Positions 4,691 through 64,000 of a stretch of DNA of 64,000 nucleotides are shown in pieces. Each line of letters opens with the position of its first letter. Position 1 is the first letter of the stretch. Made by a program: the position numbers and the translations under genes. Source of the stretch: Salibacter halophilus (GTDB lineage Bacteria > Bacteroidota > Bacteroidia > Flavobacteriales_G > Salibacteraceae); assembly GCF_008806325.1 (NCBI RefSeq), contig NZ_WACR01000001.1, forward strand, positions 124,001-188,000, written 5' to 3'. The notes beneath the pieces were generated by a model. It saw only the letters and a program-made list of their open reading frames with translations, searched no databases and was not told where the DNA came from.

Positions 4691-5449
4691 ATGACTGAAA
4701 ACTGGAAGGATATGTTTAAGAATGTGGATATTATAGAGGAATTGACGAAGGAAAGAGCTAAGCAACAAACGGCTGAGAAAAACATCATTAACCAGGCAAC
4801 CGCCATCATCAATGGCGATTTTCAACTTGAAAAATCAATTGAAAACAGGTTGACAAACCCTCATCAAGAAAGGAGTCAGCATTCAAAGTTTGATCAACTC
4901 GACTCTGATCTCATTTTTTCAGAATATACAATCGAAAATATTTGTACAAAGTACAGGCTGCGCTTTTTACCCTCTCATTTATTCCTGGGTGAAATTCCAA
5001 AAGAAGCAAAAGCCAAAATCAAAAAAATTGAAAAAGAAAACCAATTGACTTTTGAGAGTTTCAAAATTGTGGCTCCCGAAAGTCGGTTCAAGTTGAGAGA
5101 TGCTACTGAAGATCCAATTCTTTTTGCAGATCTCGGTAATGGAAGCTATTACATGATTCACAAATGGGGTGACGACATGGGCTGGTACCGAAATGCAATT
5201 CACTACCCGATGAGGAATATTACTACTTTAGGGTTGACAGCAGTAGTATTGGGTTTGCTCACAACACTCATCCTTCCTGATTCATTATTCCCTCAAACAG
5301 AATGGAGTAACGCTTACGCATCAGGTTTAACAAAAATTTACATGGCATTTGTGTTCAGTGGCTTTTACTTTGTGTCTGCACTTATCATCGGAATTTTAAA
5401 ATCTAAAGAATTTAGTCAGGATGTTTGGAAGAGTAAATTTTTCAATTAA
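4691..5449 (+). CDS. Uncharacterised protein with two C-terminal membrane helices
   Basis: A 252-aa protein that I do not recognise by function. Residues 1-65 are charged and helical; residues 75-165 form a soluble domain with SRFKLRDATEDPILFADLGNGSYYM and HKWGDDMGWYRNAI, a conserved-looking core; two membrane helices follow (about 180-205 and 215-238), so the bulk is cytoplasmic if the N-terminus is inside. The ATG at 4691 almost touches a TAnnTTTG box, so an ATG at 4712 (starting MFKNVD) is an alternative start. Its 3' end overlaps the next lipoprotein gene by 29 bp, which suggests cotranscription. Confidence 0.75.
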   Translation: MTENWKDMFKNVDIIEELTKERAKQQTAEKNIINQATAIINGDFQLEKSIENRLTNPHQERSQHSKFDQLDSDLIFSEYTIENICTKYRLRFLPSHLFLGEIPKEAKAKIKKIEKENQLTFESFKIVAPESRFKLRDATEDPILFADLGNGSYYMIHKWGDDMGWYRNAIHYPMRNITTLGLTAVVLGLLTTLILPDSLFPQTEWSNAYASGLTKIYMAFVFSGFYFVSALIIGILKSKEFSQDVWKSKFFN

Positions 5450-62185: not shown

Positions 62186-62628
62186 AATTGTGGTGGTTTA
62201 TTTTGGCGGTCAATTACTGTTAAATATCTAAGAAAGAATGCAGTAATTCAAATCACCAAAAAATAATATCATGCCCTCATAACAAGAAGAGCAAACCCAA
62301 ATATTGTGCATTTTCACTCCTTATTTCAGGCACATTTAAAACTAATGTACCCAAATTTCTCCAGACGAAGTTAAAATTTCACCAATTTGATAGCTGAAGG
62401 AGTTAATCAACCATCTATTTTGCAAATAGCAGACTCAGCTATTTGACTTTAAATCCTCTTTTATAACTATCTTCATAAAACTAAGGAAAAGGAGTTGTTG
62501 GTAATTTGGTGATTATTTAGTAATTATGAAGGGAGAAATGAATTATATAATGTTAAGTAACAACCAAAAGTCAGCTTATCACTACTAATTTTCGGGGATA
62601 AGTTAACCTTTTGTCAACTTATAACCTA
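62186..62628. other. Gene-free leader before the cassette-like region
   Basis: This 443-bp AT-rich stretch holds no ORF that I can support. A weak dyad, AAGTT at 62600-62604 with AACTT at 62616-62620, lies just before the first cassette boundary. If the region to the right is an integron-like array, this would be where an attI-type site or leader promoter would lie, but neither is seen with certainty. Confidence 0.4.
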
Positions 62629-62638
62629 GTTAGCCACA
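62629..62638 (+). repeat. Left boundary core of cassette 1 (GTTAGCCACA)
   Basis: GTTAGCCACA, followed by AATATGAAAAGACA, aligns with GTTGTAGCCA-ATTAAAAAAGACA at 63341. Its complement TGTGGCTAAC opens the palindrome at 63213. It marks the start of the first cassette. Confidence 0.6.
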
Positions 62639-62651
62639 ATATGAAAAGACA

Positions 62652-63197
62652 ATGAAACAACTGTCGACAGAAATAACAGAATTGCTGAATAAGAAATCAA
62701 CAACTGACTTCTTAAACGCTGCTCGACATTTTGCGACTTTGTTGGAAAATGGTGATTTAAACCAAGAGCAATTCTACAAGGAATCTCATAAAGCATTATC
62801 AGAACTTTATCGGACTGCATTGGAACTTGAGACAATTGACCTAATTCATTCGAGCTCTAAAAGCGAATTCAACGAAATTGACCAAAACGAACTCAGAGAA
62901 ATGAATAAAGGTCTGATTTCTAAACTTGGAAAAGAATGCTTCTATTGGGAAGTATTCGAACCAGCATATGACAAGAAAAACGAACCGACACAAGGTTGGT
63001 TAGTAGACGACTTTGCAGACATTTATGCAGACCTAAAAGAAGAACTAACAAAAATTGACAAAGTCGGCACTGACGAATCAATAGAAGACGCTTTATGGCA
63101 ACTGAAATTTGGATTTAATCACCATTGGGGAAATCACTGTATTGACGCAATGAGAGCATTACATTATTTATGGTATGACGGAAAAACTTCGATGTGA
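62652..63197 (+). CDS. DUF5063-family protein (cassette 1)
   Basis: A 181-aa soluble protein. The pattern YWEVFEPAYDKKNEPTQGWLVDDFADIYADLKE and ALWQLKFGFNHHWGNHCIDAMRALHYL matches DUF5063, a short family of unknown role. Asp is almost always GAC in this gene, unlike the core genes, which prefer GAT, a sign of foreign origin. It begins 23 bp after a boundary core and is followed 16 bp later by a long palindrome, so it looks like the ORF of a gene cassette. Confidence 0.75.
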   Translation: MKQLSTEITELLNKKSTTDFLNAARHFATLLENGDLNQEQFYKESHKALSELYRTALELETIDLIHSSSKSEFNEIDQNELREMNKGLISKLGKECFYWEVFEPAYDKKNEPTQGWLVDDFADIYADLKEELTKIDKVGTDESIEDALWQLKFGFNHHWGNHCIDAMRALHYLWYDGKTSM

Positions 63198-63212
63198 AAA
63201 TGAAAAAATACT

Positions 63213-63352
63213 GTGGCTAACAGCACCTAAGAAAACATGGGGCGGACAGTGGTTTCCGCAAGGTTTGTTCTTCGTGGCTACTTTTGTCGCTTGCGGACAA
63301 GAAAGTGCTCCGAAAGCCCCACGTTTCTTAGCTGCAAAACGTTGTAGCCAAT
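63213..63352 (+). repeat. attC-like long imperfect palindrome
   Basis: The left arm opens TGTGGCTAACAGCACCTAAG and the right arm closes with GCTGCAAAAC-GTTGTAGCCA. Paired pieces, from outside in, are TGGCTA/TAGCCA, CTAAGAAA/TTTCTTAG, CATGGGGC/GCCCCACG and TCCGCAAG/CTTGCGGA, with unequal unpaired bases between. The asymmetric pairing and the core GTTG at the 3' end resemble integron attC sites, although the core does not match GTTRRRY exactly. Confidence 0.7.
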
Positions 63353-63365
63353 TAAAAAAGACAAA

Positions 63366-63980
63366 ATGAGAAACTCAATGACATTACTTCTAACATTCAC
63401 TTTCCTACTTTTAGCAAGGTTCAGTGGAAAGAAGGACGAAGTAAAAATTTGGACAGAACAAACGACAGTTGATAAGGCGATTGACTTTGAAAATTCGCTT
63501 AGTAAACAAATAGAAGTTCTCGACAAGAATGTCTCGCTCTCAAAAAGCATTTATCCTCTAGTTGACAAGTACAAATTAGCAAAGCCAATAATAATTCAAC
63601 GTGAGCAGACGGGTTTTTTACCTCTTTACGCTGAATACTTTTATTCTGAATCAGACTCAATTATCAGATATATAAGTTATGACTGGGAAAGGGAGAAATA
63701 TGGAAATTATTTCAAGAAACAAGAAATATGGGAAGTAGAAAGCAAAAAACTGAAACAGTACAATTCTGAATACGAGAAAATAAAATCGACTTTAATCGAG
63801 CAACTCGGTGAACCGACAAATCAGGATACAGAACCGCAAAAGACAGAATCAACTTCAGGACGAGGAGATTACTTGACTAGAAGTACAGTCTGGGAGACAG
63901 ATAATCACTATTCCAAATTGACTATGATTTTTGAATCAATGACTTACAGAATTAGGTGGTACTATTACTGGAAAAAATAA
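63366..63980 (+). CDS. Uncharacterised protein (cassette 2)
   Basis: A 204-aa protein beginning MRNSMTLLLTFTFLLLARFSGKKDEV. The start looks like a lipoprotein signal that has lost its cysteine (ARFSG where a Cys would be expected), so the anchor may not work or the start is ambiguous. The rest is soluble, charged and mixed alpha/beta (PIIIQREQTGFLPLYAEYFYSESDS, WEVESKKLKQYNSEYEKIKSTL). No family is recognised. It follows the first attC-like palindrome by 14 bp and is itself followed by the start of another. Confidence 0.7.
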   Translation: MRNSMTLLLTFTFLLLARFSGKKDEVKIWTEQTTVDKAIDFENSLSKQIEVLDKNVSLSKSIYPLVDKYKLAKPIIIQREQTGFLPLYAEYFYSESDSIIRYISYDWEREKYGNYFKKQEIWEVESKKLKQYNSEYEKIKSTLIEQLGEPTNQDTEPQKTESTSGRGDYLTRSTVWETDNHYSKLTMIFESMTYRIRWYYYWKK

Positions 63981-63986
63981 AATAAC

Positions 63987-64000
63987 TGGCTACAACAGCA
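63987..64000 (+). repeat. Start of a second attC-like palindrome, cut by the window edge
   Basis: TGGCTACAACAGCA repeats the opening TGGCTAACAGCA of the palindrome at 63214 (two extra bases, CA) and is the complement of the closing GTTGTAGCCA at 63341. It begins 6 bp after the ORF stop. Confidence 0.6.

Follow-up and report, generated by a model that had tools for sequence, protein, structure and literature searches.

Cassette array at the right edge of the window

The window, the whole 64,000-nucleotide stretch of DNA analyzed here, corresponds to C1:124001-188000 of the Salibacter halophilus genome (G000). Near its right edge, two open reading frames (ORFs) lie on the plus strand at 62652-63197 and 63366-63980, each with the leader AAAAGACA. 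They are preceded by the short cores GTTAGCCACA (62629-62638, plus strand) and GTTGTAGCCA (63341-63350, plus strand) and followed by palindromes opening with TGGCTAACAGCA at 63214 and TGGCTACAACAGCA at 63987, all as described in the initial annotation. The palindrome, put there at ~140 bp, measured 139 bp: the attC-like site of cassette 1, with the layout R''-L''...L'-R', spans 63212-63350 (plus strand) and scored 123.7 bits with the attC model R2. The R' core of cassette 1 pairs with its own R'' at 63212-63221, and that of cassette 2 with its own R'' at 63987-63996. With the crossover presumed at G|TT, and by analogy with classical integrons for the exact boundary, cassette 1 would extend from the TT of its own R' to the G of the next core (62630-63341, plus strand). 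Cassette 2 (63342-64000, plus strand) is cut by the window edge; the next core is at C1:188117, equivalent to window position 64117. The window holds the start of the second attC-like site (63987-64000, plus strand), and the full site lies at L026:3988-4127. The 181-aa product of the first ORF matched DUF5063 (PF16702, E 1.9e-35), and the 204-aa product of the second matched no family in the Pfam/NCBIfam search.

The array was expected to run past the right edge, and it did. Nine R2 matches were detected at C1:187.2-193.7 kb (L026), reaching C1:193675, ~5.7 kb beyond the window, which excludes an end of the units at 64 kb. The window contains no integrase, as had been noted, and no Phage_integrase match was found anywhere on C1. 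With at least two attC and no nearby integrase, the array has the composition of a CALIN. The 10-mer GTTGTAGCCA alone modestly exceeded its chance frequency in the window (six matches with at most one mismatch versus 2.2 expected; 3 of 100 shuffles reached six). The full repeat occurred well beyond chance, with 18 places in the own genome matching a 164-bp stretch of it at E ≤ 1, itself included.

Six nucleotides before the core of cassette 1 lies the inverted repeat ATAAGTTAAC-CTTTT-GTCAACTTAT (62598-62622, plus strand; palindrome score 7), which may act as an attI-like element; this palindrome and the core are present without a recombinase gene upstream. The pre-array stretch at 62472-62539 (plus strand) has an 82% identical copy near an orphan attC, at C3:231356-231423 (minus strand), and a weaker third copy was observed at C1:34021-34064. 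A lone attC-like site was found at C3:230.6 kb. The ~70 bp shared before two orphan sites is possibly a promoter or an attI remnant. When the pre-array sequence was searched in 34 relatives, only short weak matches were obtained, in three of them.

At least four sister arrays are present in the same genome, at C1:64.9-70 kb, C3:308.4-310.8 kb, C6:76.5-77.9 kb, and from C3:51.2 kb onward. At C3:306.3 kb, adjoining a sister array, lies a tyrosine recombinase gene truncated at its 5' end, of which a C-terminal part of 152 aa remains; its first ~240 residues were sought upstream and were not found. This remnant was the sole relative found in the genome of the recombinase described below, and a 10/10 match to the predicted cassette core is located 42 bp behind its stop codon. 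The first cassette behind it (L028:6830-8347, on C3) encodes a reverse transcriptase close to Drt4, with a score of 413.4 bits against a family cut-off of 450. Since the Drt4 family is antiviral, a defence gene appears to be carried as a cassette behind the remnant. A Bacteroidales-type SRP RNA was observed beside the C3 array, and an Rfam search at the L026 and L028 arrays returned no family.

Folding and own-end complementarity of the attC-like sites

The initial annotation had compared the palindrome with folded attC sites. We aligned 18 sites from the own genome over 144 columns and scored a named stem of 20 pairs. Stem cells were paired in 86.4% of cases across the 18 copies, compared with 80.4% in shuffles and at most 47.8% with slid partners. 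Ten pairs were changed on both sides, and none of 500 shuffles was as good on any of the five measures, in agreement with attC-like folding. In a 70-site alignment from 26 loci, which was fitted to the structure and hence favours covariation, doubly changed cells numbered 293 against 104.6 in shuffles and at most 98 with slid partners; 0 of 500 shuffles were as good on four of the five measures, and 6 of 500 were on the number of pairs with both-side change. The minus strand of the window palindrome folded better than shuffles (z -3.75, 0/200), and the plus-strand fold was weaker (z -1.71, 12/200). For the AAC-GTT stretch, the bottom strand folded better in 93 of 111 sites, by a mean of 2.2 kcal/mol. 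The sites are thus imperfect palindromes that have R and L boxes where cassettes end and that conserve structure over sequence, as in integron attC.

The span from AAC to GTT was 120-128 nt in 221 of 275 sites (L025-L132 and L196-L222). Smaller groups were seen near 60, 158-164, and 186-191 nt, and in the folds the long sites add a central hairpin. A series of attC lengths in ~64-nt steps (spans of ~60, 124, and 188 nt) was considered; it was weakened by spans of 146-147, 158-164, and 196-224 nt in further arrays.

In an excised circle, the two ends of a cassette meet, so the 5' arm of a cassette should pair with its own 3' arm. In the first set of 87 consecutive attC pairs, 71 were used after removal of six with gaps of at least 2500 nt, five lacking GTT, and five lacking AAC. 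Over the seven positions after GTT, the match to the own R'' averaged 6.25 of 7, and 66 of the 71 pairs matched at five or more positions. The neighbouring arm within the same attC matched at 2.37 positions (n = 110) and permutations at 2.56, with 0 of 10000 permutations as good. A second set was gathered after model building, from twenty array regions chosen for R2 matches, those four of six plasmid stretches that had a match, and L196; each locus had at most 98 31-mers in common with any earlier locus. Here, 125 of 151 pairs were used (10 without AAC, 15 with gaps, and one without GTT were dropped), and own arms matched at 5.78 positions versus 2.55 for the neighbour (n = 164) and 2.48 for permutations (0/10000). 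Poor pairs, with fewer than five of seven matches, numbered 5 of 71 in the first set and 19 of 125 in the second; perhaps some of them span a missed attC. The model treats the arm columns as unpaired and therefore cannot create the arm match. Judged from the sequences, own-end complementarity is the mark of a circular cassette. It also ties the palindromes to cassette boundaries, which excludes ordinary terminators unconnected with gene boundaries.

The complementarity is interrupted at a single place. Position 11 never matched in the 172 well-matched pairs (66 and 106 from the two sets, with the 5 and 19 poorer pairs excluded), and positions 12-14 matched again in most of them. At position 11, R' was A in 171 of 172 pairs and the complement of R'' was G in 130, so that the mismatch is mostly A.C on the top strand and a T.G wobble on the bottom strand. 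This mismatch may select the strand. Copying templated by the hairpin was considered as a source of arm complementarity and is disfavoured by the mismatch.

An ORF of at least 60 aa was found in 192 of the 197 cassettes with attC on both sides (median length of the longest ORF, 215 aa), and the longest ORF was co-oriented in 179 of the 192. Among these 192 ORFs, 16 pairs were common to different loci at E ≤ 1e-8. Arrays contained up to 17 matches in 20 kb. They also occur on plasmids, as in Chryseobacterium sp. SNU WT5, where six sites follow a recombinase gene already named "site-specific tyrosine recombinase/integron integrase".

A tyrosine recombinase linked to the sites

Eighty named relatives of the recombinase were taken by protein, of which 40 are Bacteroidota by record title. 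Model R1, from the own genome only, gave 38 matches in 17 of the 80 loci, all on the recombinase strand. Model R2 matched in 23 of the 40 Bacteroidota loci (13 of which had given sites to R2) and in none of the 40 others; among the 25 loci with at least 1500 nt of downstream sequence, 21 had R2 matches. Sixty-three of the 67 R2 matches lay downstream on the recombinase strand, three upstream on the other strand, and one upstream on the same strand. The upstream sites of opposite strand (L118:81-219, L127:85-222, and L116:926-1063, all minus) have the layout of classical divergent integrons; the first quick tree puts L118 and L127 on a shared branch close to the base of the Bacteroidota group.

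The arm predicted for the first cassette was found downstream of the recombinase in all 25 loci, perfectly in 17 and at 9/10 in eight. It lay within 180 bp of the recombinase stop codon in 21 loci and at 277, 301, 925, and 2049 bp in the other four. When arms of other loci were used as a control, 31 of 600 reached nine matches anywhere and 11 did so within 180 bp. By position, the match behind the recombinase is an attI, as in integrons. The 40 bases before the cores of 23 loci and the window had a mean palindrome score of 6, compared with 4.22 in mononucleotide shuffles (0/200), and nine of the 24 stretches scored at least 7.

Full-length relatives of the remnant are ORFs of 378-451 aa. All eight relatives compared with the integron integrase family TIGR02249 matched it only as two split stretches below the cut-off. 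The distance from KGxKDR to LRHS was 65-67 aa in Bacteroidota rows (71 in L097) and 107-108 aa in 14 IntI rows; since it was 64-73 aa in other Xer-type rows, the short distance excludes IntI and is not special to the clade. Against IntI4 (2a3v), residues 182-242 were unmatched by the profile, which has only 18 positions there. The additional (I2) domain of IntI, an insertion of ~42 aa, is accordingly absent. For the Seonamhaeicola enzyme, structure prediction (mean pLDDT 84.8, pTM 0.58) gave a bbabbab N-terminal domain at residues 1-72, and the best solved relatives were XerA-type (5hxy and 4a8e) and IntI4 (2a3v). As a constant feature this domain was rejected: of 147 matches listed for the phylum, 55 begin no later than position 40 and 81 begin at 85 or beyond. 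A quick tree was computed from 91 rows; 60 Bacteroidota-type rows, including three rAID-like rows and L098 (phylum unstated), fell on one side of a branch with an unstarred SH-aLRT value of 84.6, and the 14 IntI rows grouped at 100. These sequence comparisons place the recombinase in a clade separate from IntI. L111, from a Candidatus Undinarchaeales MAG, encodes a 377-aa recombinase with a 67-aa distance and without the I2 insertion; the first quick tree grouped it with IntI rows at 96*, and it is possibly an intermediate form.

We next consider the distribution of the two components. With R2 at E ≤ 1e-4 and eight candidates scored per genome, which gives a lower bound, the attC type was detected in at least 180 of 395 genomes of the phylum. 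Among controls from other phyla, 1 of 39 genomes matched, with up to 84 candidates scored. This match, G503:C158:2167-2304 (L196), is in an alphaproteobacterial metagenome bin and may reflect contamination or transfer. The recombinase profile at E ≤ 1e-60 matched 121 of 395 genomes. Taking the three draws of 395 as the same genomes, both were present in 101, the attC type only in 79, the recombinase only in 20, and neither in 195 (odds ratio 12.5, p 1e-24).

Probable integron-type recombination and its alternatives

We interpret the feature, with a probability of roughly 0.86, as the beginning of an orphan cassette array, part of an integron-type system that characterizes Bacteroidota. The recombinase would be an XerA/IntI-related tyrosine recombinase that lacks the IntI insertion and often carries an additional domain at its N terminus. 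It would recognise the long attC that ends a circular cassette in the form of one folded strand, most likely the bottom strand; in the circle, the two complementary R arms of the cassette would meet and complete the hairpin. Catalysis by this enzyme would then join the cassette at G|TT to the double-stranded attI just behind its own gene. With integration at an attI behind the recombinase gene, cassettes would stack downstream in the same direction. The array in the window would have lost, or never had, an adjoining recombinase, and the genome keeps only the C-terminal remnant, at the head of a sister array. The 20 recombinase-positive genomes without an attC match, the 79 attC-positive genomes without the recombinase at the threshold used, R2-type attC near a classical IntI (L243) and a weak match at a second IntI locus (L239), the four upstream matches among 67, the poor arm pairs, and the SH-aLRT of only 84.6 count against this interpretation.

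A classical integron or CALIN, in which a canonical IntI with the I2 domain serves the attC and the consensus alone is unusual, is an unlikely explanation. The overall logic is the same, and IntI exceeded the TIGR02249 cut-off in 105 of 395 genomes of the phylum. Among ten IntI loci examined, four R2-type sites stand at a distance of a few kb from the classical IntI of L243, and L239 has one weak R2 match (E 0.016). A generic attC scan of IntI loci was too blunt for the arm comparison and gave an excess on the reverse strand too, because palindromes read both ways; with a stricter scan, the classical locus L241 also has own-end arms, in three pairs and their mirror only. However, with the draws again taken as the same genomes, the association of IntI with the attC type was negative (odds ratio 0.56, and 0.38 in genomes that lack the other recombinase). 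The class of the window has 65 attC-positive genomes, of which 48 have the new recombinase and none has IntI; no IntI match was found in G000. The deviation of the cores from GTTRRRY, pointed out in the initial annotation, was real: 28 of 288 R' heptamers conformed, in a count that required GTT itself. These observations favour the suggestion, also made there, of a distinct Bacteroidota cassette system, since the recombinase tied to the attC type is not IntI.

Whole blocks might instead have spread by homologous recombination between repeats, with the recombinase, for example an Xer-type resolvase, as a bystander. We regard this as very improbable. The pre-array sequence common to two orphan sites would fit, as would one homologous cassette pair. 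A 264-aa cassette gene is common to L115, L205, and L073 at 95-97% identity. The cassettes of L115 (14516-15483) and L205 (ending near 4721) share DNA similarity of 84.8% over 1103 columns, which ends at the last base of the right GTT; on the left, the similarity runs through the preceding attC, leaving only one clean junction. Yet their arms differ in step, GTTGTGGTT versus GTTGTAAGT, and both cassettes keep their own-end matching, which suggests that an attC with both arms was replaced as one unit. In L073, the detected attC on either side of the copy stand farther apart. Spread as blocks is also opposed by the attI core that immediately follows the recombinase and by the co-occurrence of recombinase and attC.

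Dispersed palindromic repeats, whether terminators or REP-like hairpins moved by another enzyme and lying between short genes by chance, would agree with palindromes close behind stop codons and often far from any recombinase, but this is scarcely credible, as a terminator would not predict an upstream 10-mer matching the arm after the same gene, a match that persisted in the fresh pair set, nor the core behind the recombinase, and the matches within a locus share one strand.

Comparison with integrons and rAID arrays

The Bacteroidota system is like IntI integrons, including chromosomal ones and the archaeal ones presented in PMC9668308, in its tandem single-gene cassettes and GTT/AAC-boxed attC hairpins. 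Its attI at the recombinase end and long arrays are further likenesses, as is the own-end complementarity, seen in the one classical locus L241. By contrast, the ~42-aa insertion is missing from the Bacteroidota recombinase, which often has a bbabbab domain added at its N terminus and whose gene points into the array; R' rarely conforms to GTTRRRY, and the ~14-nt arms show an invariant position-11 mismatch, which may be peculiar to this system. As the IntI-specific domain was looked for and not found and few R' conform to the consensus, the system is not classed as a classical integron. Like a CALIN, the window array consists of attC without an integrase in cis, whereas its attC type and recombinase differ from those underlying the term. 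In Xer/pdif modules, genes are flanked by 28-bp XerC/XerD core sites, whereas the Bacteroidota sites are ~139-bp hairpins with cassette-specific arms. Smyshlyaev et al. (PMC8138268) note that conservation of the IntI insertion is incomplete in their integron-like subgroup; in the relevant passages of that report, no cassettes, attC, or attI are described for the members without it.

rAID arrays consist of a tyrosine recombinase followed by at least two short immunity-type genes in the same direction, with conserved motifs between them, and their authors, in a 2025 passage on acquisition, call the mechanism "not yet clear" (PMC12247911). A Bacteroides ovatus plasmid locus (L221) has this layout, with a recombinase relative followed by 17 co-directional genes, five of which are annotated as immunity or SMI1/KNR4 proteins. 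Own-end arms at its ATTA core matched at 7.0 of 9 positions against 5.0 when permuted (7/20000), with 8 of 11 consecutive pairs scored, in a single-locus test in which the regular expression probably put two of the eight R'' in the wrong place. Such arrays share with the window-type system the recombinase clade, co-oriented short genes, conserved intergenic motifs, and, in L221, own-end arms. They differ in short intergenic sites, ATTA instead of GTT, and immunity cargo; an R2 search of the L221 array gave no match. The window array has no adjoining recombinase, and a scan of eight ORFs there gave no immunity family. We lean toward the view that Bacteroidota carry a second kind of integron, with a recombinase of a non-IntI lineage, no I2, and its own attC code, of which rAID would be a short-attC branch that acquires genes by cassette integration.

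A literature search found no description of this system; most subscription papers were outside its scope, and a prior comparison of rAID with integrons is possible. If the system is confirmed, searches have missed a major platform for gene capture in marine, soil, and gut bacteria, probably because they target IntI. Folded-hairpin recombination would then not need the inserted IntI domain, which is called essential for integron function in a passage of PMC8138268. The system would also provide a testable mechanism for rAID arrays, and hairpin recombination may explain arrays that protect gut Bacteroides from the toxins of their neighbours. The matched yet never perfect arms bear on the origin of cassettes and attC. 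According to the figures given in one large survey, 93% of complete integrons are in Gammaproteobacteria and one is in Bacteroidetes proper (PMC9024848), in contrast to the 180 of 395 sampled genomes of the phylum with the attC type described here. IntI was commoner in the phylum than these figures suggest; classical IntI is common in its other classes, and in the class of the window it was observed in one genome (G133).
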